A DNA stretch of 64,000 bases. Origin: Prosthecobacter sp. (lineage in GTDB: Bacteria; Verrucomicrobiota; Verrucomicrobiia; Verrucomicrobiales; Verrucomicrobiaceae). The DNA is taken from contig NZ_JAGRPF010000051.1 in assembly GCF_020439865.1 (NCBI RefSeq), positions 62,001 through 126,000 of the forward strand, read 5' to 3'. Made by a program: the position numbers and the translations under genes. The notes under the pieces are model-generated. The model ran no database searches. It saw only the letters and a program-made list of their open reading frames with translations, and was not told where the DNA came from. Positions 25,502 to 40,146 of the stretch are shown here, piece by piece (position 1 is the stretch's first letter; each line of letters begins with the position of its first letter).

Positions 25502-26962
25502 TTAGTGTTCGTAGCCTGCTTCGCCGTGTTCGGCGAGGTCCAGGCCCTGACTTTCCACTTCAGGATCGACACGCAGTCCGACGACCACTTTGACCACCAA
25601 GGAGATGATCACGGTGGCGACGACGCTCCAGACGATGGTGAGGCCGACGGCTTTGAGCTGCTCGCCGACGAGGCCGTTGAGAAGGCCTTCAATGCCGGGA
25701 TTGGCTTCCTTGCTGGCAAACACACCGGTGAGGATGGCGCCGAGTGTGCCACCAACGCCATGCACGCCGAAGGTGTCGAGAGCGTCATCGTAGCCTAGAA
25801 GTTTCTTCAGGTAGGCGACAGCGAGGAAGGGGATCACACCCGCGAACACGCCGATGATGACGGAGGAGGTGGCGGTGACGAAGCCCGCACCCGGGGTGAT
25901 GACGACGAGACCGGCGACGATGCCGGAGCAGAAGCCGAGCACGGAGGGCTTGCCACGCACGATCCACTCGGCGACGGCCCAGACGAAGCCTGCGGTGGCG
26001 GCAGCGAGCGTGGTGGTGGTGAAGGCGTTGGCGGCGATGCCGTCAGCACCAAGGGCGGAGCCGGCGTTGAAGCCATACCAGCCGACCCAGAGCATGCCGG
26101 TGCCAACGGCGCAGAGCACCATGCTGTGGGGAGCCATCGAGTCTTTGCCGTAGCCTTTGCGTTTGCCGAGGATGATGCAGAGCACGAGCGCGCTCCAGCC
26201 GGAGGTCATGTGAACGACGGTGCCACCGGCGAAGTCGATGGCTTTGATGCCTGCATCTGCGTTCAAAGGACCGCACATGAAACCGGTGCCGCTCCAAACC
26301 ATGTGAGCGAAGGGGAAATAGACGGCGAACATCCAGATGGCGACGAAGACCATGACGGCGAGGAACTTCATGCGCTCGGCGATGGCGCCGATGATGAGCG
26401 CCGGTGTGATAATGGCGAAGCTGAGCTGGAACATGGCCCACATGGAGTCCGAGATCCACCAGTAGCCCGCACCGGAGGCGTAAGGGGAGACGCCTTCGAA
26501 CATCTTGTACTGCAGGTCGCCGATGAAGGCGTTGCCCGCACCGAAGGAGAGGCTGTAACCGCAGGCCCACCAGAGGATGGTGACCAGGCCTGCGATGCCC
26601 ATGCACTGCGCGATGACGGAGAGGACATTCTTTTTGCGCACCAGACCACCGTAGAACAGGGCGAGGCCGGGGAGTGTCATGAAAATCACGAGCGCGGTGC
26701 TGACCATCTGCCAGGCGTTGTGGCCCGGGCCGGGGCCCGCGATGTTCGAGGTCCATTCTTTGTCACCGTCTTTGCCGGCCTGGCCGTTGGTGACGTATTT
26801 TTCGAGGTCGAAGACGCGTTGTTCGATGGTGGGGCCTGTGGGGGCGGCGGCTGATGCTGGTGTCGGGGCAGCGTCCTGGGCGAGGAGAACTCCGCTGCAA
26901 AGAACGGATGTGGCAAGGAGACCGCACATAAAAGTGCGCCAGAGGGACTGGTGTCGAGTCAT
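25502..26962 (-). CDS. amtB: Ammonium transporter (AmtB type)
   Basis: A 486-residue Amt/MEP/Rh-family channel. It has a signal-peptide-like first helix (FMCGLLATSVLCSGVLLAQD), an Ala/Pro-rich linker and a short periplasmic segment to about residue 75, then 11 membrane spans. The start of the core (ALFYGGLVRKKNVLSVIAQC) is diagnostic of the AmtB branch. The twin pore histidines are present in GGTVVHMTSGW and DTFGVHGVGGT. The C-terminal tail (GLRVDPEVESQGLDLAEHGE) is the conserved element contacted by PII proteins. It has its own sigma-54-type promoter and its own terminator, so it is regulated independently of the second amt gene upstream. No glnB/glnK gene is adjacent. Confidence 0.96.
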   Translation of the reverse strand: MTRHQSLWRTFMCGLLATSVLCSGVLLAQDAAPTPASAAAPTGPTIEQRVFDLEKYVTNGQAGKDGDKEWTSNIAGPGPGHNAWQMVSTALVIFMTLPGLALFYGGLVRKKNVLSVIAQCMGIAGLVTILWWACGYSLSFGAGNAFIGDLQYKMFEGVSPYASGAGYWWISDSMWAMFQLSFAIITPALIIGAIAERMKFLAVMVFVAIWMFAVYFPFAHMVWSGTGFMCGPLNADAGIKAIDFAGGTVVHMTSGWSALVLCIILGKRKGYGKDSMAPHSMVLCAVGTGMLWVGWYGFNAGSALGADGIAANAFTTTTLAAATAGFVWAVAEWIVRGKPSVLGFCSGIVAGLVVITPGAGFVTATSSVIIGVFAGVIPFLAVAYLKKLLGYDDALDTFGVHGVGGTLGAILTGVFASKEANPGIEGLLNGLVGEQLKAVGLTIVWSVVATVIISLVVKVVVGLRVDPEVESQGLDLAEHGEAGYEH

Positions 26963-27037
26963 TGGGTTGGAATGGGTTGGTGGTGTGCCCGTCTGAAGCG
27001 CCGTCTGGCGACACTTTTGGCGGATAGGGCTCGCAAA

Positions 27038-27054
27038 AGCAGGCGGTGTGCCAA
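27038..27054 (-). promoter_or_regulatory. Sigma-54 (-24/-12) promoter of amtB
   Basis: On the minus strand the sequence is TTGGCACACCGCCTGCT. The consensus is TTGGCACG-N4-TTGCT with invariant GG and GC 12 bases apart, and both are kept with exact spacing. It lies 76 nt upstream of the amtB start, predicting a 5' UTR of roughly 60 nt, and sits just after the terminator of the preceding amt gene. Confidence 0.8.
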
Positions 27055-27058
27055 TATC

Positions 27059-27096
27059 AAAAAAAACTCCCCGGCCGCAGAGCGTGCCGGGGAGTT
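27059..27096 (-). terminator. Rho-independent terminator of the upstream amt gene
   Basis: A perfect 10-bp stem (AACTCCCCGG at 27065-27074 with CCGGGGAGTT at 27087-27096) followed on the minus strand by a U-run from the A's at 27059-27066. It separates the two amt genes transcriptionally. Confidence 0.88.
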
Positions 27097-27133
27097 AGAG
27101 GAGTTGATCAAACTGCCTTTGGGCAGCCGAAAC

Positions 27134-28582
27134 TTAGTGGTTTGCCTGGAAGTTCGGGTAGGCCACGTTGCCATGCTCGCCGATGTCGAGGCCCTCGGAT
27201 TCTTCCTCGGGGGTGACACGGAGTCCCATGATGATCTTGAGGATCAGGAGAAGGACGAAGGCGAAGATGAAGGTGAACACGCCGTAGGCGATGACGCCTT
27301 TGAGCTGGCTCATGAACTGGGGCATGCCGGCTTTCTCACCGAAGAGACCGACGGCCAGAGTTCCCCAGATACCGCAGACAAGGTGGACGGAGACGGCACC
27401 GACCGGGTCGTCGATCTTGATCTTGTCGAAGAAGAGGACGGAGAAGACCACGAGCACACCGGCGATGGCGCCGATGAGCATCGAGCTTCCAGCTGCCATC
27501 TGGTCAGCACCAGCGGTGATGCCAACTAGACCGGCGAGGATGCCGTTGAGGGCCATGGAGAGGTCAGGCTTCTTGAGGAAGATGACCGAGGCGAGGGCTG
27601 CGGCAACACCACCGGCGGCGGCCGCAAGGCAGGTGGTCACGAGCGTGAGGGAAACCAGACCAGGATCAGCGGAAAGCACCGAACCGCCGTTGAATCCGAA
27701 CCAGCCGAGCCAGAGAAGGAAGACGCCGATGGTTGCCAGCGGCATGCTGTGACCGAGGATGGGCTTGGTCTTGCCATCGGAGGTGTATTTGCCACGACGA
27801 GCCCCAAGGAGCAGGATGCCGGCGAGGGCTCCCCAGCCGCCCACCGAGTGGACGAGCGTGGAACCTGCGAAGTCATAGAAGGGAGTCTCAAGGCGGTTCA
27901 ACCAGCCGTTGCCCCACTTCCAGCTGCCGGCGATCGGATAGCAGATGGCGACGAAAATGATAGAGAACACCATGAAGGTGCTGAGCTTCACGCGTTCGGC
28001 AACGGCACCGGAGACGATGGTGGCGGCAGTGGCGGCGAACATGGCCTGGAAGAGGAAATCGGTCCAGTAGGTGTAACCGACGTTGTAGGCGGAGGTGAGA
28101 CCGGCGGCGTCCGTCGTGATGCCAAAGCCGGCGAACTTGAACCAGAACTGGGAGTCACCGTCTGCAAATCCAGGATACATCAGATTGAAACCGCAGAGGG
28201 CGTAGGTGAGCAGTCCGATGCAAGGAATGAGGGTGTTCTTGAACAGGATGTTCACCGTGTTCTTGGACTGGGTGAGGCCCGATTCAACGCAGGCGAACCC
28301 GAGATGCATGATGAACACCAAAGAGGCGGCAATCATCATCCAAAGATTGTTGGTGGTGAAGAGTTCGACCGAGGGGCCGGCTGGCGCTGCTTCGGCAGCT
28401 GCAGCGGGGGCCGGAGCGGCGGCTGGCTCCGGAGCGGGAGCAGGTGCCGCGGCAGCAGGGGCTGGTGCAGGTGCTGCATCCTGAGCACGGACTTCGCCGA
28501 GGCTGAATGCGAGTGTGGTGATGGCAGCCATTGCCGTGATGGCAAGACCGCTCCAGATTCGTGTTGGTGTGTGTTTGAGCAT
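27134..28582 (-). CDS. amt: Ammonium transporter (second paralogue)
   Basis: A 482-residue Amt-family channel. The start at ATG 28582 gives a signal-like helix (SGLAITAMAAITTLAFSLG) and then about 45 residues of Ala/Pro repeats before the core. The core begins LWMMIAASLVFIMHLGFACV and continues ESGLTQSKNTVNILFKN, the branch that differs from AmtB by replacing the YGG motif with ESG. The pore histidines are in GSTLVHSVGGWGAL and VSVHLVCGIWG. The tail GLRVTPEEESEGLDIGEHG parallels that of AmtB. A sigma-54 promoter lies 38-54 nt upstream and a terminator follows, so it is a separate transcript. It may differ from AmtB in affinity or in response to nitrogen. Confidence 0.95.
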   Translation of the reverse strand: MLKHTPTRIWSGLAITAMAAITTLAFSLGEVRAQDAAPAPAPAAAAPAPAPEPAAAPAPAAAAEAAPAGPSVELFTTNNLWMMIAASLVFIMHLGFACVESGLTQSKNTVNILFKNTLIPCIGLLTYALCGFNLMYPGFADGDSQFWFKFAGFGITTDAAGLTSAYNVGYTYWTDFLFQAMFAATAATIVSGAVAERVKLSTFMVFSIIFVAICYPIAGSWKWGNGWLNRLETPFYDFAGSTLVHSVGGWGALAGILLLGARRGKYTSDGKTKPILGHSMPLATIGVFLLWLGWFGFNGGSVLSADPGLVSLTLVTTCLAAAAGGVAAALASVIFLKKPDLSMALNGILAGLVGITAGADQMAAGSSMLIGAIAGVLVVFSVLFFDKIKIDDPVGAVSVHLVCGIWGTLAVGLFGEKAGMPQFMSQLKGVIAYGVFTFIFAFVLLLILKIIMGLRVTPEEESEGLDIGEHGNVAYPNFQANH

Positions 28583-28619
28583 AAGTCGGTGATTGGATTG
28601 AACTCCGATACCAGTGCTA

Positions 28620-28636
28620 AGCATTGCGCGTGCCAA
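28620..28636 (-). promoter_or_regulatory. Sigma-54 (-24/-12) promoter of the upstream amt gene
   Basis: The minus-strand sequence is TTGGCACGCGCAATGCT. All eight bases of the -24 box match TTGGCACG, the GC of the -12 box is in place, and the GG-to-GC spacing is exact; the only mismatch in the -12 box is A for T. It predicts transcription starting about 27 nt before the ATG at 28582. This is the best match to any sigma-54 site seen in the window. Confidence 0.88.
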
Positions 28637-28722
28637 CTCTGGTTTTGATTTGGTCGCCAATGACTGACTCCGCACGAATGAGACTCTCGAAGGAGAAAAG
28701 ATGCACATGACCATGCGTGCAC

Positions 28723-28755
28723 AAAAAAGGCGAACGGTGTTCCCGTTCGCCTTTT
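28723..28755 (-). terminator. Terminator of the small secreted protein gene (possibly bidirectional)
   Basis: A 13-bp perfect stem (28725-28737 with 28743-28755) with A's on one flank and T's on the other. On the minus strand it lies 27 nt after the stop of the gene at 28782-29306 and ends in a U-run. Confidence 0.88.
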
Positions 28756-28781
28756 GTGAATGACTCAAATTTGAACAGCGA

Positions 28782-29306
28782 CTACTTCGCAAAGGGGCTG
28801 GTCGCGAGCTTTCTGAAGATGTCGTTCAGTTTGGCAACAGCGTCTTTGGGACCTGTGAGCTTGATGAAGACATTGTTTTCTCCAGCCGGAATGATGGCTC
28901 CAAGCAGCGTGTAGTCTGCCTTGGGGGTCTTGGCACCCATCGGGGGGCCGTCGTTGTAAGTCCCGGTGGCTGCGACCAATGTGACCTTTGTACCTCCTGC
29001 ATCGATTTCTTCCACTTTGCTCTCAGCCTTGGGTTCAGGCGCGAACTGGCCGAGCCAGCGGTCTACATTGGCTTTCACCCCACCCGCCGCTCCGAAGCTG
29101 AAGAATGCGACTTCGAGCGGTTTTTCCGCCCCTTCCACTTTTGCTTCAAGCGTGGCGACCCGCATCATGCTGGTGGTGGCAGATTTGGTCCAGGCGGAAG
29201 GGTATTGGAAGGTGAGGCCTGCGGCCTCGAGAGGAGTGGTATCTTCGGCGAGCGAAGCAGCTGCAGTGCTGATGACAGCAAGCGAGGTGATGAGGAAACG
29301 TTTCAT
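28782..29306 (-). CDS. Small secreted protein of unknown function
   Basis: A 174-residue protein with a clean Sec signal (MKRFLITSLAVISTAAASLA). The mature part is one globular domain with FQYPSAWTK near the start and FIKLTGPKDAVAKLNDIFRK at the end, a pattern like PsbP/DUF-type lipid- or stress-associated exported domains (hydrophobic strand, YPxxW, C-terminal helix). I cannot assign a family name. It lies 25 nt downstream of the azurin-like gene on the same strand and shares its terminator, so the two are probably one operon. Confidence 0.8.
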   Translation of the reverse strand: MKRFLITSLAVISTAAASLAEDTTPLEAAGLTFQYPSAWTKSATTSMMRVATLEAKVEGAEKPLEVAFFSFGAAGGVKANVDRWLGQFAPEPKAESKVEEIDAGGTKVTLVAATGTYNDGPPMGAKTPKADYTLLGAIIPAGENNVFIKLTGPKDAVAKLNDIFRKLATSPFAK

Positions 29307-29331
29307 GAAGGTGCGCGTTGGGTGTGGAGGA

Positions 29332-29805
29332 CTACTTCGTGACGTGCATCACACCGCGCATCAGCATCCAGTGGCCGGGGAAGGTGCAGATGTAAGGATA
29401 GTCGCCGGCATCTGCAGGCGCGGTGAACTCGATGGTTTCGCTCTGGTTTGGCTGCACCAGCTTCGTGTTGGCGATGATGTCTGGCTTTGCCGCTTCAGGA
29501 ATGTAGCTCTTCGCCATGCCTTGAGGATCGGCCAGCATGGCGTTGGCGAGTGCGCCGACAGCGTCGAGCTTTCCGGGTTTGAGGAGAAGGAAATTGTGCG
29601 GCTGCGGTAGAACGCCGCCGGTGTTGTTCAGGGTGAGCTTCACCTTCTGTCCGGCTTTGACTGAGAGCTCGGTGGTTTCATAGGCGAGGGGGGCCGAAGG
29701 ATTGGTGCTGGGCTTGAGCTCGATGACGGCGACATCAGCATCCTGGGCTTGGGCCGAAAGGGTGAATGCGGCAATGGCGGTGAGTAGGTGGCGGGTGATC
29801 TTCAT
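29332..29805 (-). CDS. Azurin/plastocyanin-like blue copper protein
   Basis: A 157-residue periplasmic cupredoxin with a Sec signal (MKITRHLLTAIAAFTLSAQA). The four type-1 copper ligands are visible with azurin spacing: His70 in PQPHNFLLL, then Cys140, His145 and Met149 in YPYICTFPGHWMLM. The GHWM segment and the long insert between strands, with helical LDAVGALANAML, are azurin features. It should carry single electrons between periplasmic redox partners. No obvious donor or acceptor is encoded next to it. It is divergent from the DUF1552 gene and leads a two-gene unit with the small secreted protein. Confidence 0.93.
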   Translation of the reverse strand: MKITRHLLTAIAAFTLSAQAQDADVAVIELKPSTNPSAPLAYETTELSVKAGQKVKLTLNNTGGVLPQPHNFLLLKPGKLDAVGALANAMLADPQGMAKSYIPEAAKPDIIANTKLVQPNQSETIEFTAPADAGDYPYICTFPGHWMLMRGVMHVTK

Positions 29806-29902
29806 ATTTTTATGGGTGGGTTTTGCAGGGAGCCATTAATCGGGCCGTGACGGCGCTGAATTTCAACTACTTTCGCGACGGTGCTGCGGTGTGTTGCATT
29901 GT

Positions 29903-29919
29903 CTGGCACGAAAGTTTCT
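29903..29919 (+). promoter_or_regulatory. Possible sigma-54 promoter before the DUF1552 gene
   Basis: The plus-strand sequence is CTGGCACGAAAGTTTCT. The -24 box matches seven of eight bases and the -12 box is TTTCT where TTGCT is expected, so the conserved G at -13 is missing. It lies 27 nt upstream of the ATG at 29946. This is plausible but weaker than the two amt sites. Confidence 0.4.
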
Positions 29920-29945
29920 TCCCATCCCACCGTAGACCACCAAAC

Positions 29946-31304
29946 ATGAACGAGTTTCGTGAAACCTCCCTCGCAGCCCATTCTCTCAGCCGCCGCCACG
30001 TTTTGCGTGGGATTGGCTCGATGGTTTCGCTGCCTTTTTTGGAATCTTTTGGCACGCGGGCGTTTGCCGCTGCCAAACCGGCGGTGAAACCGATTCGCGC
30101 CGCGTGGTTATACATTCCAAACGGGGTGAATGTAGAGCAATGGATGCCGACAGGTGAAGGCGCGAGTTATGAGATGTCGCCTTCGTTGAAGCAAATCGAA
30201 AAGCATCGCGATGACTTCATGGTGGTTTCGGGGCTGATGCAGGATTTTGCACGCAGCCACGGCAATGGTGGTGGGGACCATGCGCGTGCGACGGCGACAT
30301 TTCTCACTGGATGCATGCCAAAGAAGACGGCGGGTGCTGACATCCATCTTGGGATTTCGGTAGACCAGATTGCAGCGCAAAGAATTGGTCACCTCACAAG
30401 GTTGCCGTCATTGGAACTGAGCACGGACGGTCAGCGCAGCTCGGGCAAGTGTGACTCCGGTTATTCCTGTGCCTACCAGTTTAATCTGGCGTGGAAGAAC
30501 GAGACGATGCCGATGGCTCCCGAGATGGATCCTCGCCTGGTGTTTGAGCGCATGTTTGGCATTGGAGCCACGGCTGGCAGAGGGCCGGAGGCGGAGCGTG
30601 TGAAACGCATGCAAAAGAGCATCCTCGATACGGTGCTGGACGAGGCCAAAAGCCTGCAAGGCAAGGTGAATGCGGGCGACCGCCGCAAACTGGACGAGTA
30701 CTTCTCATCTGTACGCGACATCGAGCAACGGATCGAACGTGCAGAGAGGTTTTCAGCGGAAATGCCGGATGTGAAGATTCCGGACGGCATCCCTGACTCC
30801 TACGAAGAACACATTCGCACCATGTTTGACCTGATGGTGCTGGCGTTCCAGACGGACACGACACGTCTTTCGACCTTCATGCTTGCACATGATGGGAGCA
30901 ATCGCAGCTTCCCCGAACTGGGAGTGCCGGATGCGCATCATTACCTTTCCCATCATCAGAGCGATCCGCAGAAGTTGGAAAAGATCGCCAAGATCGACCA
31001 GTTTTACCTGCGCCAGTTCGGGTACTTCCTCGATAAGATGAAATCAGTGAAGGAAGGGGACGGCAACTTGCTGGACAACTCGATGATCGTCTTTGGCGGA
31101 GGTATTGGTGATGGCAACCGGCACAACCATGACAATCTGCCGATCCTGCTTGCTGGGCGTGCCGGCGGCACGTTGACGCCGGGCAAGCGTGTCGTCCTTC
31201 CTGGGGAGACGCCGATGACCAACCTTTACCTTTCCATGCTGGATCGCATGGGCGTCCCCGCGGAGAAAGTAGGGGACAGTACGGGCAAACTCGAGGTGAG
31301 TTGA
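29946..31304 (+). CDS. Tat-exported DUF1552 family protein
   Basis: A 452-residue protein with a twin-arginine signal (SLSRRHVLRGIGSMVSLPFL at residues 13-32); ATG 29946 was chosen because it gives the usual Tat leader length. The mature region is DUF1552: IRAAWLYIPNGVNVEQWMPT, then GHGNGGGDHARATATFLTG-type His/Asp segments (near 30256-30310), VGDRRKLDEY-like helices, and SMIVFGGGIGDGNRHNHDNL. The fold resembles the alkaline-phosphatase/sulfatase-like DUF1501 group. In relatives it usually sits beside a DUF1592/DUF1588 cytochrome-type partner; none is here. Function is unknown. It converges on the gene ending at 31339. Confidence 0.92.
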   Translation: MNEFRETSLAAHSLSRRHVLRGIGSMVSLPFLESFGTRAFAAAKPAVKPIRAAWLYIPNGVNVEQWMPTGEGASYEMSPSLKQIEKHRDDFMVVSGLMQDFARSHGNGGGDHARATATFLTGCMPKKTAGADIHLGISVDQIAAQRIGHLTRLPSLELSTDGQRSSGKCDSGYSCAYQFNLAWKNETMPMAPEMDPRLVFERMFGIGATAGRGPEAERVKRMQKSILDTVLDEAKSLQGKVNAGDRRKLDEYFSSVRDIEQRIERAERFSAEMPDVKIPDGIPDSYEEHIRTMFDLMVLAFQTDTTRLSTFMLAHDGSNRSFPELGVPDAHHYLSHHQSDPQKLEKIAKIDQFYLRQFGYFLDKMKSVKEGDGNLLDNSMIVFGGGIGDGNRHNHDNLPILLAGRAGGTLTPGKRVVLPGETPMTNLYLSMLDRMGVPAEKVGDSTGKLEVS

Positions 31305-31338
31305 ATTGCAAGCCGACCGCATCTCTCCTCACCTTGTT

Positions 31339-33411
31339 TCAACGTCCTGCGGGAAGCGGACGTTTGATGGTGGGGGGAAGATTGGGATCCGATTTCCGAA
31401 TGCCCGGAGGAGGCTCGTTGCCTGCAGGCCGGTTGGCGGGTTTGCCGCTGACGCCGTTTTTTGATATTCCCGGTGGCAGTTCTTCATTCTCGAACGCTTT
31501 CTGCGGCGTGGAGATCGCTCTAGGGACCATGGGCAGCGAGTACCAGTGCATCTGAGGGACCGCACTCAGTTCGACCCATTGCTGTGAACCAAGTTTCTTC
31601 CACTCAAGTTCGACAACCGCCCACACGTGTGTTTCCCAAGGCATGCGCGAGCGAAGCTCCTCGGCTAGTGGTGATTCTTTGTCGAGAAACACGGATGCTT
31701 GGAATGAATTGGGTGGAGCAGGGCTCACACGAAATGCGTCCTTGCGGTCAAGGTTTGGCACGCCGTCTTCAAAGTAGTGGTGGCGGATGATGCCGACGTG
31801 AAATCGAGCCGGCCCTTCCTGATACGATTGAAAGAATTTTTCAAGCAGGCGGTCTTTGAATTCAACAAACGCCAGCCAGTCCACCTTGAAGCCATCCGGT
31901 TGTTCTTCCAGCATCACCGGCACCGGGAACTCCCAGGTTTTGTTTTCGAGGCTGAAGATGCAGTGTTTGCCGGAACCGAGTTCTGGATTCGGATCCATTC
32001 GAACAAAGTGGATGCTGTCCACGATCACCGGGCCGTCTGCCGTGCGTGTGTAATAGCGCTCCATCAAGGGTTTCATATGCTCGGCGCCCAAGGTGTATTT
32101 TAGGCGTTCCGTGAACGAATTGGCGGCTAGAAAATTTTTGAGCGCATTCACCGCAGGCTTGGCCGCAGGCGGGGCATCGTCCTCTTCGATCACATGCGGT
32201 TGTGACAGATTGTCAGGCAAGTCGTTTCCAAGCGTGGATGAAACTGAATTCATCGCAGGTTTGGATGGCACTTCGAGAAGCGTGTCAGCCGGCTGCGCCG
32301 GAACAGATGTGGAAGTCACTGGTGTGTCGATGACGGAAGAAGAAGCTCCTTGGGAACTGATGGGATTGGTGGCGGCGATCTTTTCTTGCGTGGCAGGCTT
32401 CGCCTTGAGTGCCACTGGTTCTGTGGGATCAAAGCCGACCGCGATTGGAGACGGAGCGATTTTTGTTTCCGTGAGGGGTGGCGCGTTCGTTCCTTCTGAG
32501 CTGTTACCTTCGGTTGGTTTGGAAGGTGGAGATGATTGCAGAGGGGCAGATTCCGCCGATAGCAGTGGCGATACTTTTGTAAGCTCCTCGTCACTCGCCT
32601 CTTGGCTGACAAGGCTGGGGAAAAAACCCGGGAGATAGTCTTTCAGGAGAAACCCGACCAAGCCGAGGAAGCCAATCAGGAAGATGGCGGCAAAGGCGAG
32701 CCGGATGACATTGGTTCCACGGGGAGCACGCAGGCTGTTGAGGCTGCGCCCGGCCGGAACAGGGGGAGACGGCGAATCATGCCCGAGCGCTCCGCCCAGA
32801 CTCAATGAGGGCAAGCCGACGGTCTGGAGTGGTTGCGTGACTGGGGAAATCGGGGCCGGGGAGACTTCCCTTCCGAGAAGTGAAGACGCTGGCAGCGGAT
32901 GGTTTAAACCTGCCATGCCACCAGGATTACCTCCTGGCATCATGTTAGGCAATGCGGGCGAACCAGGGATGAGGCGCGAATGATTGGGTAAACCACCTCC
33001 TCCTGAAGATGCGTCAGGAGAACCCAATGGGGCGTGGCCCGCTGGTGAAGACGGGGTGGAAGACCAAGGCGCTTGGTTCACAGCACTACCGAGAGTAGTT
33101 GAAAGGGGCTGTTGGCCAGGCGCGCGCTTTGGCGGCAAGCCGGAATTTGGTGGTTGAGACGGCATGCTCGCACCAGCCGATTCCCCCATTGAAAGAGATT
33201 GGGGGGGGGAGTTCCACGTTGGTGGCGACGTGGAGACTTGAGGCATTGCGGGTGCCTGAGCCCACCGAGTTTCCTGAGGTGCCGCAGGGGTGGGAGAAGT
33301 GATTGTTTGCCCACAACTGGGGCATGGGCCAGACACACCCGCCATTTGTGCAGGTACAGTCAAAGTCGTGCGACAAAAGCCGCATTGAAACTGGAGCGTG
33401 TCCGGGTTCAT
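31339..33411 (-). CDS. Zinc-ribbon, Pro/Ser-linker, single-span membrane protein of unknown function
   Basis: A 690-residue protein. Residues 10-33 form a zinc ribbon (CGFC, then CPSCG). Residues 40-230 are a Pro/Ser/Gly-rich disordered linker, residues 234-256 one membrane span (VIRLAFAAIFLIGFLGLVGF), and residues 270-425 a second Ser/Pro/Thr-rich stalk. The C-terminal domain (about 430-640) is folded, with FLAANSFTERLKYTLGAEHM at its start and WETHVWAVVELEWKKLGSQQ near its end, followed by a Pro-rich tail. Similar zinc-ribbon-plus-span proteins are common but unnamed in Verrucomicrobia. The ribbon would be cytoplasmic and the C-domain periplasmic. It has its own promoter 30 nt upstream. Local base composition is lower in GC than most of the window. 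Confidence 0.8.
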   Translation of the reverse strand: MNPDTLQFQCGFCRTTLTVPAQMAGVSGPCPSCGQTITSPTPAAPQETRWAQAPAMPQVSTSPPTWNSPPQSLSMGESAGASMPSQPPNSGLPPKRAPGQQPLSTTLGSAVNQAPWSSTPSSPAGHAPLGSPDASSGGGGLPNHSRLIPGSPALPNMMPGGNPGGMAGLNHPLPASSLLGREVSPAPISPVTQPLQTVGLPSLSLGGALGHDSPSPPVPAGRSLNSLRAPRGTNVIRLAFAAIFLIGFLGLVGFLLKDYLPGFFPSLVSQEASDEELTKVSPLLSAESAPLQSSPPSKPTEGNSSEGTNAPPLTETKIAPSPIAVGFDPTEPVALKAKPATQEKIAATNPISSQGASSSVIDTPVTSTSVPAQPADTLLEVPSKPAMNSVSSTLGNDLPDNLSQPHVIEEDDAPPAAKPAVNALKNFLAANSFTERLKYTLGAEHMKPLMERYYTRTADGPVIVDSIHFVRMDPNPELGSGKHCIFSLENKTWEFPVPVMLEEQPDGFKVDWLAFVEFKDRLLEKFFQSYQEGPARFHVGIIRHHYFEDGVPNLDRKDAFRVSPAPPNSFQASVFLDKESPLAEELRSRMPWETHVWAVVELEWKKLGSQQWVELSAVPQMHWYSLPMVPRAISTPQKAFENEELPPGISKNGVSGKPANRPAGNEPPPGIRKSDPNLPPTIKRPLPAGR

Positions 33412-33441
33412 TCCATCAAGTAGTTATGGCCCATTTAGACA

Positions 33442-33469
33442 ATTATCATTCAAGTATTAGTTTTGACAA
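33442..33469 (-). promoter_or_regulatory. Sigma-70-type promoter of the zinc-ribbon membrane protein gene
   Basis: On the minus strand TTGTCA (33464-33469) and GATAAT (33442-33447) are separated by 16 bases. Each box matches five of six consensus positions. It predicts a start about 24 nt before the ATG at 33411. Confidence 0.65.
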
Positions 33470-33525
33470 ATTGAACTTATGAAAGTCGAGGGTTTCATCA
33501 GACAGAACTTCGGCTCGGCTGGAAC

Positions 33526-34698
33526 TCAGGCATATCGTATCATGCCCCCGCCTCCTCCAGTGAATGCCCCTTCCAGCCTCGGGATGGTGTCATCAGGTTC
33601 AGGCAGCAGCCATACGAGATTTCGCGTCCTGAGCCGCAGACGATAGCGGATATGGCGAGCTGCGATTCCAAGGATGCCGATTGATGACAAAATCGCAAAT
33701 GCCCAGATGACGACGATGTGACTGCTCTTTTGAGCATCTGGCGCCATTAGGTCGGGGGCCACTTCGGCCAAGGGAAGGCCTGTGTCTGTTTTGATGGCCG
33801 GATCCGCTCCCAGAGCTCTTTGTAACCAGAACAAGCGAGTCGAAAGGTGGATGGCGTAGCGGTGGAGTTGATCGTATGAATCACTAGTCTGCAGGGCTTC
33901 ATGCAGACATGATTGGAGGGTTTCACTGAGGAATGCAGTGGAGGTTTGATTGTGCACTGACTTGCTTACAAACAAGCGCGCACGCCATGGCTCAGCGAGC
34001 GGATAAACGAGCAAACAAGCATCTGTTTGCAGCAGTCGCCCAGAAGCAATCGAGTCCAATCTGGCGCCTTCTGGCAGTTTGCGGTCGTGCGGGATCGTCA
34101 GGACATAAAGCTTAATTCGTGCGTCCTTGGCATGGAATTCAAGGAAACTTGTCATGTCGTGATTCTGCATTTCCGGCACCAAAAGGTCGGGGTCGATAAG
34201 ATACTCCTTTGGTAAAAACCGCGAGCAAGCGGCCATGAACTCAGAAGAGACGTCCCTGAGCGAAGACTCCGGCGTTGGCAGCCGCATGGTGCTTACAGCA
34301 GATTGAGTGGGCAGACCAAGGATCGACTCAGGAAGAAACAGTCGCATGTCTTCGGATTTCAATCGCGGGGAAAGCTCGCCATCAGGGGAGGGGAAATAAC
34401 GGTCCAAACGTGGCGCGTCGGCAACCGGGGTATTAAGCAACTCGTTTATGTCAGTGGATGGCTCGCCATTTGCAGGCAGTAGGGTACCTAGGCTGTCCGG
34501 CGATGGGAGACTGTTCCGAAAAGTTTTGAGTTCCTGTTCACTCCAGCGTGGCAGCGGAAGCGTTGGTTTTTCGACTTTCTCCTCAATCTGAGGAACCTCG
34601 GCGGTGGCGATCAAGCATGAGAGCGCCAGCATTAGTGCCGGAACGAATTTACGACAGCGTCGATCAAGCTCAATGTGATGAGAAGAGCATGCGATCAT
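33526..34698 (-). CDS. Membrane-anchored secreted protein paired with a TPM-like protein
   Basis: A 390-residue protein. It has a signal-peptide-like segment after a basic start (RRCRKFVPALMLALSCLIAT), a soluble region to about residue 320 and a C-terminal membrane span (VVIWAFAILSSIGILGIAA) followed by a basic stretch. It ends with FTGGGGGMIRYA, a Gly-run tail like those on TPM-domain (YgcG-type) membrane proteins. The middle part (RIKLYVLTIPHDRKLPEGAR, then CLLVYPLAEPWRARLF) could be a divergent TPM fold. Its ATG overlaps the upstream gene's stop (ATGA), so the two are translationally coupled. Function is unknown; a role in envelope assembly or protein turnover is only a guess. Confidence 0.7.
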   Translation of the reverse strand: MIACSSHHIELDRRCRKFVPALMLALSCLIATAEVPQIEEKVEKPTLPLPRWSEQELKTFRNSLPSPDSLGTLLPANGEPSTDINELLNTPVADAPRLDRYFPSPDGELSPRLKSEDMRLFLPESILGLPTQSAVSTMRLPTPESSLRDVSSEFMAACSRFLPKEYLIDPDLLVPEMQNHDMTSFLEFHAKDARIKLYVLTIPHDRKLPEGARLDSIASGRLLQTDACLLVYPLAEPWRARLFVSKSVHNQTSTAFLSETLQSCLHEALQTSDSYDQLHRYAIHLSTRLFWLQRALGADPAIKTDTGLPLAEVAPDLMAPDAQKSSHIVVIWAFAILSSIGILGIAARHIRYRLRLRTRNLVWLLPEPDDTIPRLEGAFTGGGGGMIRYA

Positions 34699-35342
34699 GG
34701 CTTTGTAGCTGATGAAAAGCCAGCCAACGGTCGTGAACCGGCTCTGTGTCCTCCTCTCAAGGACTGCAGCCCCAGATCGGAGCCCGTGGTCAATATGTCA
34801 GGCTGCCGTTTCATGCCATGAGCACACTTCCGTAACACATCTGCACATTGATTGCAGACGACTTCGATTGCCCGGCTTGTAGCACCTCTATTCAGTTGAA
34901 TACCGGCAGTCTGCAACATGCGAGTGACGGTTTGGGGCGAGAAATACTTTTCGATGGCATATCCCAATGTGATGCTGGCAGCCTGCTCAGCGGGATCAAC
35001 CACCAGCACAATCCCAAAATCGTTTCGTCGGCTGACGGAATGTGTGACAAACGCTCCTTGGTTCAGCAGCCAGAACCCCAGTTCGGCAACGCTCAAACCT
35101 TTGGGTAGAACACCTAGGTAAGCGGCAAAAAACACTTGTGGCAAACTTCGTTCAAAATCGTCCAAAATGATTTCAGTTCTTCTAACATCTTCGAGTCGCA
35201 GACAATGTGCCGCGTCAGTAATACGCTCCAGCTTAACCCATTGATTTCCAAGATAACCATTAAGCAATGTGGCTGAAAACCCGCAAGCAGAACAGGCATT
35301 TTGTGCTGGTGAGATGCTAGCGAGGCAGCGTGGGCATTTCAT
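34695..35342 (-). CDS. Zinc-ribbon plus TPM-domain-like protein
   Basis: A 215-residue protein. The N-terminus is a zinc ribbon (CPRC at residues 3-6, CSACG at 17-21). Residues 35-170 look like a TPM domain, known from YgcG and plant TLP18.3: an acidic start (LERITDAAHCLRLEDVRRTE), an FE-P helix segment (DDFERSLPQVFFAAY), ELGFWLLNQGAF, and the key strand GIVLVVDPAEQAASITLGYA. There is no signal peptide or membrane span, so it should be cytoplasmic. It is the first gene of a two-gene unit (ATGA overlap) with the membrane-anchored protein, and is divergent from the discoidin-like gene across an AT-rich spacer. Confidence 0.7.
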   Translation of the reverse strand: MKCPRCLASISPAQNACSACGFSATLLNGYLGNQWVKLERITDAAHCLRLEDVRRTEIILDDFERSLPQVFFAAYLGVLPKGLSVAELGFWLLNQGAFVTHSVSRRNDFGIVLVVDPAEQAASITLGYAIEKYFSPQTVTRMLQTAGIQLNRGATSRAIEVVCNQCADVLRKCAHGMKRQPDILTTGSDLGLQSLRGGHRAGSRPLAGFSSATKP

Positions 35343-35410
35343 GTTTATAGAATATATGGAACATACAATTAATCAAGTTCTATTTCGCCACCTTCGAAAC
35401 AGAAAAAGTG

Positions 35411-35439
35411 TTTACATCGCGGGGCATTTGTGGTGTAAC
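35411..35439 (+). promoter_or_regulatory. Sigma-70-type promoter of the Thr-rich secreted protein gene
   Basis: TTTACA (35411-35416) and TGTAAC (35434-35439) are separated by 17 bases, matching five and four of six consensus positions. It predicts an 80-nt leader before the ATG at 35528. It lies in the AT-rich divergent spacer. Confidence 0.5.
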
Positions 35440-35527
35440 TAACAGAGATTCAAAAAAACAAACAGGCGCTGGGTTCTTTTTGTCCAATCAACGATCAATT
35501 CATCGCCTGAACGTTCATCAACCGATC

Positions 35528-37057
35528 ATGAAGCTAACCACCTCAATTTTCCTCGCCTGCAGTCTGCTGACCGCCGGTTCCCTTCACGCGAAATGGTCGC
35601 GCATACCGATCATCAAGGAAAAGCCGGTGGATATCGCCGTCAGTGGTGCGCACAGTGCAGCCTCGCTTGACAGTTCTTCTGGTTTTGGCCGGGCTGACGC
35701 CTTGTTAATAGACGATATTACAGCTCCTGCCACGGTTTCTGCTGGTAAGAGCTTTGTAATTATCAATCTCGGTAGACCGGTTCTGATTTCACAGTCATCC
35801 TTCACAAATGATGGCATTGAAGGCCGTGCGATCCTTTCCGCGAGCGCTGACAAGCATGGTTGGGCAGTTCTTGAGGAAAAAGTCTTCTCAGCGGCAGATC
35901 GTTCTGTGGACTTTAAGTTTGCCGGAATGCAGGCCAAATTTGTGAAGCTTGAACTGGCTCTGTCGAAAGGCGGAACGATCCGTGCGCTTCACTTCTTTGG
36001 AGGTCAAACTGATAAAGGCTATGCTGTAAAGCAATCTCCTGACGGAAAGCAGGGCAAGCCAATGGATTTGATCAACGGTCTTGGTGGTGCGCGAATCATT
36101 TATGCAGCTCCGCGTCCTGCCAACGGACTCGATACCGCCGTGACCTACAACAAGTTTGCTTTCCCTGAGTCTGATGAAAAGTATCGGACGATCATCTATG
36201 ATTTTGGACAATTGCGCATTCTCAATGAATTCGCCTCGGTGCATTCTCCGCGACCTGTGCGTTTTGAGGTTTTTGCTTTCGATAACCTTCCGGAGAAGGA
36301 AGACTGGCGCGGACGAATGGCGTTTGACCCAAATGACTTCGACTCGAAGTCTCCTGTTGCGGTGGCTGAAGACACACGTGGTTTGGGAGCATTGAAAGCG
36401 ACACCTGACAAACCCGTCAAAACCCGTTACTTGGCGCTACGTTGGGAACCTGAGTTCAATCCGCCAGACTTTCAGTGCACGGGGGCAGCGGAGGGCAATG
36501 TGCTCAATATCGTTACGACCAATACAATCACGATTCAGAACGCAGATGGAACGACTACCACGGTAACTATTCAAGTGGGAGATGCCCACGGAGCAGGTGC
36601 TGCTGAGAGTCCGTTGACTCCTGATAACGCCCAGCAGCAGATTGCGCAAGGCACTGCTGTCCAGAGTGATACCACGGTTATCACCACAACTGTGACCGAT
36701 GCCAATGGCAATGTGGTGTCGCAGACGACTCAACAGGGTAGCACGACGACTACAGTCAATGTGGATAGTTCGGGGACCACCACCACCACCACGGAAACTT
36801 CGAACTCGGATGGTTCTACCACCACGATCACGGAAACCAAGACCGCTGATGGTAGCACCACCACGACAGTGACCAATACAGACAGTTCTGGGCAGCAAAC
36901 GGGTTCAGCTACGACGCAGGGTTCCGGTGGAAATAATTCACAAACTACGACCAGTAGTGATGGTAATCTTGGTGGTGGTAGTTCACCTGCTCCCAATAGC
37001 GGTGGCTCTCAGGGCTCGAGTGGTAATCAGATTACCACGGGTCCAACTTCGCCTTGA
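35528..37057 (+). CDS. Secreted protein with discoidin-like domain and Thr/Ser-rich mucin-like tail
   Basis: A 509-residue protein with a Sec signal (MKLTTSIFLACSLLTAGSLH) that fixes the start at 35528. Residues about 25-155 have the look of a discoidin (F5/8 C) beta-sandwich, e.g. KSFVIINLGRPVLISQSSFT and AGMQAKFVKLELALSKGG. A second, related beta-rich region follows (FDFGQL-type strand near 36200, then TRYLALRWEPEF). From about residue 320 the chain is a low-complexity Thr/Ser/Gly/Gln tail (TTTTVNVDSSGTTTTTTETS), probably an extended and possibly glycosylated stalk. No anchor motif is seen. Base composition is visibly lower in GC than its neighbours. It ends at a strong terminator and is monocistronic. 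Confidence 0.8.
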   Translation: MKLTTSIFLACSLLTAGSLHAKWSRIPIIKEKPVDIAVSGAHSAASLDSSSGFGRADALLIDDITAPATVSAGKSFVIINLGRPVLISQSSFTNDGIEGRAILSASADKHGWAVLEEKVFSAADRSVDFKFAGMQAKFVKLELALSKGGTIRALHFFGGQTDKGYAVKQSPDGKQGKPMDLINGLGGARIIYAAPRPANGLDTAVTYNKFAFPESDEKYRTIIYDFGQLRILNEFASVHSPRPVRFEVFAFDNLPEKEDWRGRMAFDPNDFDSKSPVAVAEDTRGLGALKATPDKPVKTRYLALRWEPEFNPPDFQCTGAAEGNVLNIVTTNTITIQNADGTTTTVTIQVGDAHGAGAAESPLTPDNAQQQIAQGTAVQSDTTVITTTVTDANGNVVSQTTQQGSTTTTVNVDSSGTTTTTTETSNSDGSTTTITETKTADGSTTTTVTNTDSSGQQTGSATTQGSGGNNSQTTTSSDGNLGGGSSPAPNSGGSQGSSGNQITTGPTSP

Positions 37058-37076
37058 TCTCTTCCGTCTGTTTTAG

Positions 37077-37111
37077 AGCCCCCGCGCTGTTTCCGGTGCG
37101 GGGGCTTTTTT
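37077..37111 (+). terminator. Rho-independent terminator of the Thr-rich secreted protein gene
   Basis: A 9-bp GC-rich stem (AGCCCCCGC at 37077-37085 with GCGGGGGCT at 37098-37106) followed by TTTTT, 20 nt after the stop codon. Confidence 0.92.
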
Positions 37112-37152
37112 GCTGTTGAGCTCTCAGGTGCTTGGTCGGGTCTCGTAAACCA

Positions 37153-37632
37153 TCATGGAGAGCAACTCGGACATAGTCCGTAAAACTCCAGTTCATGGTA
37201 GAGCTTACGAAAGCCTGACTCCTTTTCGATTTGCTTCTCTAATGCCTCTACGGGGCACTGGATGTCCAACGTTTGAATGCGCCCGCATTGAGTGCAGATG
37301 AGATAATCATCGTGGCGTCCAGGCTGGAGAATGGTGTAGTAGGCGCTGCGGTCATGCAGGCCGAGGCGCCGGATCAGGCTCAGTTCGTCCAGTTTGACCA
37401 GTATTCGATAGACCGTCGCTTTATCCGCTCCGCTTGTCAGGTCAGGTGACTCAGCAATGTCCGCCAAGGAGAGCGGTTGGTGGGCGTGAACGAGAATCGA
37501 GAGGATGTTCTCCAGCGCGTTGGTTCGTCGGAGGCCTGCATCCCGTGCACGTTTCATCATGGTTGTGACCAGTTCGCGTGCCGAATCCGCATCGTGATGC
37601 TGACAGGTGGCCGAATGATGGTGATGAAGCAT
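37153..37632 (-). CDS. Fur family transcriptional regulator with His-rich N-terminus
   Basis: A 159-residue Fur-family repressor. The winged helix carries ADKATVYRILVKLDELSLIR, and the C-terminal dimerisation part has HDDYLICTQCGRIQTLD and YGLCPSC, giving the two CxxC pairs that bind structural zinc. The regulatory-metal His cluster is reduced to RHDDYL and YHELEFYG. Unusually, the protein starts MLHHHHSATCQHHD, a His/Cys-rich tail that could sense or store metal; a later ATG (MMKRARDAGLRRT) would remove it. Fur, Zur and PerR cannot be separated by sequence alone, though Zur seems most likely. It lies 15 nt downstream of the SHD1-esterase gene on the same strand. Confidence 0.9.
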   Translation of the reverse strand: MLHHHHSATCQHHDADSARELVTTMMKRARDAGLRRTNALENILSILVHAHQPLSLADIAESPDLTSGADKATVYRILVKLDELSLIRRLGLHDRSAYYTILQPGRHDDYLICTQCGRIQTLDIQCPVEALEKQIEKESGFRKLYHELEFYGLCPSCSP

Positions 37633-37647
37633 TTTTGTCGGTATTCC

Positions 37648-38601
37648 TCAGTTCGTAGCTGCGGATTCCTTCCTCTGTCCAAACAGCCACTCGTGAAGAT
37701 CTGTGCGCGGGTAGACAATGCCTGTGATGCCGTGGCCCGCTCCTTCGAGTTCGGTGTACTTCATCAGTTCGCCGCCTGCCTGTTTTACCGCCTCAACAAT
37801 GGCGCGTGAGCGCTCCACTGGCACCATGTCATCCTTATCGCCATGAAAGACCCAAAACGGGATCTTTTTCAAAATATCAGAGTTCTTGGTGTCGCCGCCA
37901 CCACACAAGGGGACGCATGCGGCAAACACCTGGGGAAACTTTGCCGCGATGCTGAAGGTACCGAAACCTCCCATCGATGATCCGGTCAGGTAAATTCGCG
38001 TTTCGTCGATCGGCAGATGATCCGCGAGGTCAGCGATGAGCGCGAGAAGATTGTCCGCCACTTGGTTCTTCCAGCCGATGTCGGCGGACGGGCACTGCGG
38101 TGCCAGCAGAAAGCACGGCCTTTGTGCCTGATTGTCCTCGGAGGTCCAGATTTTCGGCGCGCCACCGAGTTGAGATTCATTGTCGCTGCCACTCTGGCCT
38201 GATCCATGCAGCCAGATGACGATGGGATAGCGCTTTGTGCCGTCCAGTTTGGGGTTGCCCCACAGTTGGAAATTCAATCCCTGTTTCGAGACCCCTTTGA
38301 CAAATTTTCCAGTGACCTTCTGCGCATAAGCGCCCTCTTTCAGCCCCGCATCACGCCGCTTCTCGCGAAGCAGACTGTGGATGTATTGTTGATCCTCTGG
38401 CGAAAGACGGTCCAGAGGCAGTCGAAACTGGTTGAAGTCACTCCGGCGGCGAATCTTGACCTCCTTGTCGGAGAATTCGATGAGGTCACCTTGAAACTTC
38501 GACTTCCCGTCGCTGGAGGTCCATTCTCGCGGTGGATTGGCCGCATCCGCGGATGTGGGGCACCACACGCTGAGGGCGAGCAGGGCAAGGCGCAATTTCA
38601 T
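37648..38601 (-). CDS. Secreted SHD1-domain / alpha-beta hydrolase fusion
   Basis: A 317-residue protein with a Sec signal (MKLRLALLALSVWCPTSADA). Residues 24-75 form an SHD1 domain, first known from yeast Sla1 (REWTSSDGKSKFQGDLIEFS, then PLDRLSPEDQQYIHSL), common on exported proteins of Planctomycetes and Verrucomicrobia. The rest is an esterase of the polyhydroxybutyrate-depolymerase/feruloyl-esterase type: PIVIWLHGSGQSGSDNE oxyanion region, nucleophile in YLTGSSMGGFGTF, acid in HGDKDDMVPVE, and His in GAGHGITG. The triad is complete. The substrate is probably an ester of a plant or storage polymer, but this is a guess. It is the first gene of a likely operon with the Fur-family gene. Confidence 0.9.
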   Translation of the reverse strand: MKLRLALLALSVWCPTSADAANPPREWTSSDGKSKFQGDLIEFSDKEVKIRRRSDFNQFRLPLDRLSPEDQQYIHSLLREKRRDAGLKEGAYAQKVTGKFVKGVSKQGLNFQLWGNPKLDGTKRYPIVIWLHGSGQSGSDNESQLGGAPKIWTSEDNQAQRPCFLLAPQCPSADIGWKNQVADNLLALIADLADHLPIDETRIYLTGSSMGGFGTFSIAAKFPQVFAACVPLCGGGDTKNSDILKKIPFWVFHGDKDDMVPVERSRAIVEAVKQAGGELMKYTELEGAGHGITGIVYPRTDLHEWLFGQRKESAATN

Positions 38602-38662
38602 GCACTCATGCTATGCTATACGTGCGGTCACCGGCAAGCAATTTGCTCAGCCGGCTTCACAA

Positions 38663-39787
38663 TCATGGGGTGATGCGCGCGCCGGCCTTCTTCATTTCAT
38701 CGACGAGGCTCTTGGACGACTCGTCTATGGGGTTTCCCTCGATAAAAATCTGGCAGTAAGGCGCCCATTCGCGGGCGCCAACATTGTCCTTCTTCCACAT
38801 GCGGTGCAGCGGCGCGAGGTCAGTGATCTTGTTGTTCTCCAAAAACAAAAACTGCAGCTCGGTAAGCGGCTCCAGTGGCGTAATGTCTGCCACACCGTTG
38901 CCTTTGAGCGACAGCATGGACAGCCATTTCATGCCGCCGATGCCGGCGATATTCGTGACTTGGTTGCCTTCGAGATAAAGCGTCCACACCTTGGGCAGTT
39001 TGAACAATGCCGACGCGTCCTTGATCTGGTTGTTGGCGAGGTAAAGCGATGTGAGAGACTGAATCACGCCAAGCGCTGAAACATCCGTCACCTTGTTGCC
39101 CGTGAGCTCGACGTATTGCAGCGCCTTACAGGCCGCCAGCGGAGTGATGTCGCTGATCTGATTGTTCGAGACATCGAGGAACTGCAGGCGCTCAAGTCCT
39201 TTGATCGGGGCGAGGTTCGTGATCTTGTTTTCCGGCAATGTCAGTGATGCGAGTGCCACACATTTTTCTAGGCCTGTCAGATCCTTGATGCCCGCCTTCT
39301 TGCCCTCAATGATGGAGACTGTCGCCACATCTTCAGCGGTGATCACCTCCTGATTGTCACGCTTGGCAAAAACCTGCTTCCGCACGGCGGCCTCGAGCGC
39401 TTTGTCAGGAAAAATAGCGACAGGCTTTGGTGGTGCTGGCTTCGTAACTGGTGGAGAAGCAGGTGCGGCGGGTTTTGTCGGCGGCGTAGGGGGCACAGGC
39501 TTCTTGGCTGTTGTTGGGGGCGGGGGCGTTGTGGCCGGTTTGGCAGCAGGGGGGGGCGTTGCGGGTTTTGTACTGGTGTTCGCGGGCTTGGCGGCGGGTG
39601 CAGAAACCGCAGCAGGTTTTGCTTCGACTTTTGCAGGTGGAGTCGCGGCAGGTGGTGTGACAGTTGGTTTAGGTGTCGCGTTGACCTGAAGTGCCGGAGC
39701 CGGTTTCGCAGGTCCGGCCGCCGGCTTGGCCTCTTGGGCGTGGAGACTGAGCGCAAACAGTGTGGGGAGTACAAGTTGGAATCTCAT
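38663..39787 (-). CDS. Secreted leucine-rich-repeat protein with Pro/Ala linker
   Basis: A 374-residue protein with a Sec signal (MRFQLVLPTLFALSLHAQ). Residues 20-125 are a Pro/Ala/Lys/Thr-rich linker. From about residue 127 (FPDKALEAAVRKQVF) a cap leads into roughly eight internalin-type leucine-rich repeats of about 22 residues, for example LQFLDVSNNQISDITPLAAC and LTSLYLANNQIKDASALFKL. Such repeats form curved protein-binding surfaces. The lack of a sortase or PEP-CTERM motif leaves its anchoring unknown. It lies 61 nt upstream of the esterase gene on the same strand and is divergent from the ABM gene. Confidence 0.9.
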   Translation of the reverse strand: MRFQLVLPTLFALSLHAQEAKPAAGPAKPAPALQVNATPKPTVTPPAATPPAKVEAKPAAVSAPAAKPANTSTKPATPPPAAKPATTPPPPTTAKKPVPPTPPTKPAAPASPPVTKPAPPKPVAIFPDKALEAAVRKQVFAKRDNQEVITAEDVATVSIIEGKKAGIKDLTGLEKCVALASLTLPENKITNLAPIKGLERLQFLDVSNNQISDITPLAACKALQYVELTGNKVTDVSALGVIQSLTSLYLANNQIKDASALFKLPKVWTLYLEGNQVTNIAGIGGMKWLSMLSLKGNGVADITPLEPLTELQFLFLENNKITDLAPLHRMWKKDNVGAREWAPYCQIFIEGNPIDESSKSLVDEMKKAGARITP

Positions 39788-39864
39788 GGCGGTCGGGGAG
39801 GTTCCAGAATGATACGCGGAACACGGGTTGCATGTTAAGCAAAAATAGCCTCTCTCTTGTGCTC

Positions 39865-40146
39865 ATGGTCAATGTCATTGTCATTCTTGAGGTCGATCCA
39901 CCGAAGATCGACGAATTCCTCGCAGTCATTCTCGAAAACGCCGCAGCTTCCCGTCTTGAGCCCGGTTGTCTGCGTTTCGAGGTGAGCCGCGACAACACGC
40001 AATCCAATCTCTTCGCACTGAGCGAAAGCTACGTTGATCAGGCGGCATTTGATCTGCACTACACCACGCCTCACGTTGCGAAGTGGCGTGAAAAAGGTCC
40101 CGGCTTCGTGCTCAAGCGCTGGGCGGTAAAGGGGCCGGTGTATTGA
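39865..40146 (+). CDS. ABM-domain protein (putative quinol monooxygenase)
   Basis: A 93-residue single-domain protein of the antibiotic biosynthesis monooxygenase (YgiN-like) fold. The start at ATG 39865 gives the typical opening MVNVIVILEVDPPKIDEFLA; an upstream extension is not conserved-looking. Further hallmarks are ASRLEPGCLRFEVSRD, FALSESYVDQAAFDLHYTTP and HVAKW. Members are cofactor-free dimers acting on quinols or antibiotics, or simply dimeric ligand-binding proteins. It converges on the O-methyltransferase gene with stop codons back to back and no base between. Confidence 0.88.
   Translation: MVNVIVILEVDPPKIDEFLAVILENAAASRLEPGCLRFEVSRDNTQSNLFALSESYVDQAAFDLHYTTPHVAKWREKGPGFVLKRWAVKGPVY

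Follow-up and report, generated by a model that had tools for sequence, protein, structure and literature searches.

Is the compact run of four genes of low G+C content (GC) at positions 31339–37057 of a 64,000 nt stretch of Prosthecobacter sp. DNA (the window; RefSeq assembly GCF_020439865.1, contig NZ_JAGRPF010000051.1, positions 62,001–126,000) a recently acquired module or a long-standing part of the genome, and what might its products do? A first-pass annotation of the window had read the patch as possibly acquired and as a candidate undescribed system, and the four open reading frames (ORFs) that it listed were confirmed. Genes A (690 aa, 31339–33411), B (390 aa, 33526–34698) and C (215 aa, 34695–35342) lie on the reverse strand, and gene D (509 aa, 35528–37057, starting with the ATG at 35528) lies on the forward strand. 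C and B share a 4 bp ATGA stop/start overlap (34695–34698, reverse strand). We find that the patch is made up of three units, namely the C-B pair, D with its own promoter block, and A, and that C-B is an ancient inherited two-gene operon of the Verrucomicrobiales, whose genes are kept together and lost together.

The compositional anomaly had been proposed from two hand counts, both of which are exact (25 G/C in 60 bases at 35701–35760 and 40 in 60 at 45601–45660). The GC of the whole patch is 0.534, compared with 0.603 for the whole window, and 469 sliding windows of the same size outside the patch, which overlap one another and so are not independent, gave a mean of 0.613 (standard deviation 0.013, minimum 0.582). 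The GC at third codon positions (GC3) is 0.570 for A, 0.558 for B, 0.463 for C and 0.500 for D, against a window mean of 0.745, length-weighted over window genes of >120 aa. As these values were measured over the full patch and the full genes, the anomaly is real and reaches codon usage. It recurs in relatives. At locus L085, from a near relative, the GC3 of all four genes is below that of all 12 flanking genes, and over the 30 relatives' loci examined GC3 was below the flank mean for C in 24/29, for D in 17/18, for B in 20/29 and for A in 4/4. At the small-genome loci L175 and L176 of family f2 (the Akkermansiaceae family), GC3 is not low and lies above that of the flanks, so the low-GC composition is clade-specific. 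In the Prosthecobacter-like clade the locus has long been low in GC, and this is not a mark of recent transfer.

The GC and GC3 of the patch are the lowest in the window, and this favours a recently acquired low-GC envelope module, a reading that we nevertheless consider very improbable. All four genes are present family-wide. Among 68 genomes of the window's family, Verrucomicrobiaceae, B was matched in 56, C in 59, A in 63 (weak paralogues included) and D in 61, and D was matched in 47/47 of the good family genomes. Per-genome score ranks also track those of NuoD (Spearman 0.92 for A, n=46; 0.84 for B, n=49; 0.91 for C, n=51; 0.79 for D, n=58), fragmentary matches of A (e.g. G042, G023, G025, G055, G038, G050, G036 and G008) and of B (G037, G008, G051, G064 and G016) and weak paralogues of C having been excluded from the comparison. 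Neither the patchy distribution nor the discordant divergence of a horizontal island was found in the family genomes. Recent acquisition was rejected on the grounds of wide family distribution, NuoD-like divergence and recurring low GC3, and this part of the first-pass annotation is already largely refuted.

The distribution of the C-B pair over the order argues in the same direction. Among 112 genomes of the order, matches were found to B in 98, to C in 103 and to D in 37 (33 of these in the window's family). In 88 of the 93 genomes of the order that have both among the matches listed (C matches being listed for 98 of the 103 positive genomes), C precedes B on the same strand. The 4-base overlap is found at the called starts in 15 of 37 loci with both genes, and in the others the starts were called elsewhere, mostly upstream. 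Across 20 relatives, whose neighbourhoods were compared over up to 19 kb, only D, C and B are constant around the locus (the simple ORF picker used for this comparison failed to call C at L089 and L090). Among named records, the pair occurs, for example, in Brevifollis, Verrucomicrobium sp., Prosthecobacter, Roseibacillus and metagenome-assembled genomes of Akkermansiaceae. Among 250 genomes sampled from the phylum outside the order, B matched one, via its tail only. The best C match in the 12/68 family genomes that have no B match is no stronger than E 4.8e-12, which is the level of a paralogue. At G016:C23:27727–29122, C and B remain only as fragments with internal stop codons, and the closest match to A is weak. 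The expectation that the TPM pair would recur in other genomes together with the 690 aa and 509 aa genes was thus borne out in part: the pair is found order-wide, but the links to A and D are partial.

From its sequence, C is predicted to be a cytosolic zinc-ribbon/TPM protein, with neither a signal nor a membrane span predicted. The zinc-ribbon cysteines (C3/C6/C17/C20) are conserved in relatives. Of 27 aligned C relatives, 26 match PF04536 (TPM) at E<=0.1, with 1.8e-9 as the best value; the window copy falls just below the cut-off (21.9 bits compared with 22.1). The C profile finds the TPM chains 2kw7, Tll0404/Psb32, BA41 and 7tbr in the PDB. Residues N94, N107, D116, G127 and Y128 are invariant across the order. 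A free-standing second zinc-ribbon/TPM gene, with ~26% identity to C, is present in most family genomes (in the window genome, G000, around 9187–9699 of L105, G000:C28). Its neighbours include no fixed partner, a result that is weak because the ORF picker missed the gene in 9 of 17 loci.

B has a signal-like segment (residues 18–36), a domain placed outside, a transmembrane (TM) span (328–346) and a conserved basic tail. No family match and no PDB match by sequence were found for B. The structure prediction that had been advised for this protein, an AlphaFold model built with 37 sequences, contains a confident domain at residues 150–296 (33811–34251, reverse strand), with predicted local distance difference test (pLDDT) scores >90 for most blocks. 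The structural matches of this domain include 5anp (BA41; Z 11.2, 135 residues, root-mean-square deviation 3.3), 7tbr (a Rhodothermus TPM domain; Z 10.3) and 3ptj (Z 9.7), with PG_0361, LMTP1, for which no literature was found, BA42, Psb32 and AtTLP18.3 also among the top matches, and mycobacterial supercomplex chains and cg2496 at Z of about 8. We take rows 10 and 12–14, the mycobacterial supercomplex chains, to be the Msmeg_4692-type TPM subunit. All of the first 14 rows are TPM domains (Z 11.2 to 7.6), and unrelated folds appear from 5.9 down. The outside domain of B, as modelled, has the TPM fold.

As basic residues follow the span of B, the tail (33529–33621, reverse strand; VWxLPExExxPRLGGAFxGGxGAxIxY) is predicted by the positive-inside rule to face the cytosol. 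The span and tail recur in a separate signal-TPM-TM protein of 236–270 aa. Alignment of the B profile with such proteins using hhalign gave 97.2% (E 3.6e-11, 211 columns covering domain, span and tail), and 3/4 of these proteins match Pfam TPM. The window genome has a signal-TPM-TM gene with the B tail motif (L187:5542–6279, G000:C161). A gene of this type lies ~0.7 kb from nuoD (encoding the 49-kDa subunit of complex I; nuoD and nuoE were identified by Pfam) in 8 of 12 family genomes for which a tail match is listed, and the protein encoded next to nuoD is a possible assembly factor of complex I.

What the pair does can be approached from known TPM proteins. In PMC11237479, and again in PMC12419801, TPM is proposed to be chaperone-like in membrane-complex assembly. 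According to PMC8267372, full cbb3 oxidase activity in C. jejuni needs the TPM protein CcoZ (Cj1484), which resembles Msmeg_4692 of the III-IV supercomplex. We consider it somewhat probable that C-B works from both sides of the membrane as an assembly or quality-control factor for a membrane complex. The two TPM domains would lie on opposite faces of the inner membrane, with C in the cytosol binding the conserved tail of B. The outside domain of B would contact a membrane protein complex, and the pair would act in the assembly or quality control of that complex, like the TPM proteins of photosystem II and respiratory complexes. Within the family, A would join as an accessory membrane partner.

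Several observations weigh against this proposal. PF04536 was found in 0/27 members of the B family at E<=1, and a comparison of the B profile with the C profile gave no match (probability 0.2%). A occurs without C-B in G062, G035 and G066, and C-B without A in G010, G030 and G031, several of these genomes being incomplete. Genus g12 of family f2, which has small genomes and is taken to be Akkermansia, lacks the A domain, and most of its genomes keep C-B; as g12 has C-B without A, A is not essential to the pair. At least 7 genomes have D but not C-B. Work cited in PMC11237479 has also termed TPM domains phosphatases or ATPases.

This last point bears on the possibility that C and B are TPM phosphatases or nucleotidases, one on either side of the membrane, the zinc ribbon serving to bind substrate or nucleic acid. 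The Pfam family name, TPM_phosphatase, and the order-wide invariant residues of C would fit such enzymes. However, B by eye lacks the second acidic motif and GYxxE, both of which are kept in C, though D169-P170 is invariant in B. PMC11237479 and PMC12419801 also argue against a phosphatase role, and we regard the enzymatic explanation as unlikely.

The zinc ribbons that had been noted in two of the four proteins are those of C and A. In A, the ribbon (residues 1–37, 33301–33411, reverse strand; C10/C13/C30/C33, conserved in relatives) is followed by a Pro-rich linker, a single TM span (238–256) and a predicted C-terminal NTF2-like domain (about residues 408–519, 31855–32190, reverse strand). 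The structure prediction suggested for the C-terminal domain gave pLDDT values of 72–95 over most of 408–519. The first 112 residues of the C-terminal region model as NTF2-like and the remainder is of low confidence; the whole-model mean is 59. NTF2-like folds are matched with a best Z of 8.5 from this weak model, and no single NTF2-like family stands out in the structural comparison. A probably forms its own transcription unit. The promoter-like sequence directly 5′ of it, TTGTCA-16-GATAAT (33442–33469, reverse strand), fits 10/12 positions and is weak, 4 such sites being present in the region compared with 3.5 expected from shuffles. Adjacency of A to B is confined to the Prosthecobacter-like clade. 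Of the 47 good family genomes, 41 carry A as well as C-B, 4 (G016 among them) have both absent or broken, and 2 have one without the other (Fisher 1.4e-4, not corrected for kinship). Inside the family, A is likely to be an accessory membrane partner of C-B. At L128 (G055:C1), A is in pieces in different frames, representing a frameshifted gene or an assembly error.

The combination of A and B recalls Bacillus. As described in PMC11237479, YdjG consists of zinc ribbons, a TM span and an NTF2-like domain and YdjH is a membrane TPM protein, and according to PMC8581546 the two interact, recruiting YdjI and PspA. By our comparison, A and B would repeat both domain orders, and C-B-A might be a PspA-free relative of this envelope-stress platform. 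We find this doubtful. PspA was found in 0 of the 13 family genomes searched, the window genome included, and in 3 of 6 searched genomes from other families of the order. No SPFH (YdjI) partner was seen among the flanking window genes scanned, no genome-wide search having been made, and the NTF2 call for A comes from the weak model. As PspA is missing from 13/13 family genomes searched, the locus was not filed as a Psp system.

D has a signal peptide (by inspection), a discoidin/CBM32-like N-terminal half, a conserved second domain and a Thr/Gly/Ser-rich tail (27% Thr over residues 321–509), and no span above threshold. The original outline of a TPM-type pair accompanied by membrane and secreted proteins with no named function, two of the four proteins having one membrane span each, agrees with the spans predicted here. 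At E<=1, PF00754 is matched by 10 and PF22633 by 11 of 21 D relatives (best 6.8e-7), the window copy matching neither, and the D profile matches the CBM32 structure 2jd9 (E 8e-4). D is a secreted, probably glycan-binding discoidin-type protein. A terminator-like hairpin (15 pairs, 10 of them G-C, and a T run) lies 3′ of D (37075–37108, forward strand). In 27 of the 33 family genomes with D (27/37 order-wide), it lies divergent to C. It is an old divergent neighbour of C-B, and a functional link is uncertain.

The AT-rich divergent promoter region that the genes were said to share (35343–35527) is real (GC 0.384), but it is not one shared element. Alignment reveals a separate conserved promoter block of D (35400–35440, forward strand), consisting of an A-tract, TTTACA, a 12-base gap and a TGTG/TTCAAAT-like sequence. 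C has its own AT-rich, promoter-like conserved stretch abutting its start codon (CTTGATT...ATATTCTATAA, 35343–35377, reverse strand, also from alignment). Only a few bases separate the end of this element from the ATG, with no visible Shine-Dalgarno sequence, so the C mRNA may be leaderless. Related blocks are found 5′ of D where it is separated from C, the best score exceeding the largest of 40 shuffles in 14/16 loci (by a margin of only one at L215 and L222; L214 and L221 fail this threshold), and the block lies about 120–160 nt upstream of the D start in most separated loci too. The block is also absent at L097, L098 and L100, where D adjoins C. A 28-mer within the block (35411–35438) has one exact site in the genome, the sole other match having 3 mismatches, so no regulon was found. 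This 28-mer was rejected as a shared C/D operator, as it is absent 5′ of C at L088, L136, L138 and L142, the four loci examined in which D is elsewhere.

These results bear on whether the patch holds three unrelated neighbours, C-B, D and A, with different jobs and together by descent only, which we judge quite possible, if short of probable. In other genera D and A are found at separate positions, each has a promoter-like site of its own, and D is retained where C-B has been lost. However, D remains beside C in most family genomes while the other neighbours change, and A and C-B are lost together. The idea of one four-gene module is borne out only in part: C-B alone is kept order-wide, A adjoins B in a single clade, and D has its own promoter block and persists without the pair.

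A broader version of the assembly-factor proposal is an order-wide transmembrane TPM machine, in which cytosolic C would be docked on the tail of periplasmic B, joined in Verrucomicrobiaceae by A and the secreted discoidin D, and which would take over envelope surveillance of the PspA type, PspA being absent from the searched genomes of that family. We think this rather unlikely. Assembly or repair of electron-transfer complexes is a recurrent role of TPM proteins, whose mode of action is unsettled, and a pair with TPM on both membrane sides would be a clean two-gene system for weighing chaperone against phosphatase. The group bearing the pair includes Akkermansiaceae and Prosthecobacter-like cells, and what looked like a foreign patch becomes a conserved, unannotated envelope module. 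The view that the system is undescribed held, in that no description of a Verrucomicrobia TPM system was found in the literature searched, and the Akkermansia mutant-screen literature was likewise unhelpful. Elsewhere in the window, a tandem pair of ammonium transporter genes (PF00909) is present at 25502–28792, and an Rfam scan of window positions 29000–40000 gave no match.

Three known groups invite comparison. D resembles secreted proteins of the F5/8 type C group (discoidin, CBM32) in its first half, which matches PF00754/PF22633 in roughly one half of the D relatives and shows a weak match to CBM32 structures, but no catalytic domain was found in it and its architecture, combining a conserved second domain with a long Thr/Gly/Ser-rich tail, is specific to the family. 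The pspA-ydjGHI operon of B. subtilis, compared by its described domain order, has a membrane TPM protein beside a zinc-ribbon/TM/NTF2-like protein, as predicted here for B and A. However, the locus described here is without PspA in the searched family genomes and without an SPFH gene seen nearby, and it has an extra cytosolic zinc-ribbon/TPM protein (C) and an overlapping C-B core. The likeness to Psb32/AtTLP18.3, BA41/BA42, Msmeg_4692 and CcoZ lies in the fold of the outside domain of B, the profile of C and the single-span membrane form. In contrast to these known TPM proteins, the pair places two TPM proteins in one overlapping operon, one of them predicted to be cytosolic and with a zinc ribbon.

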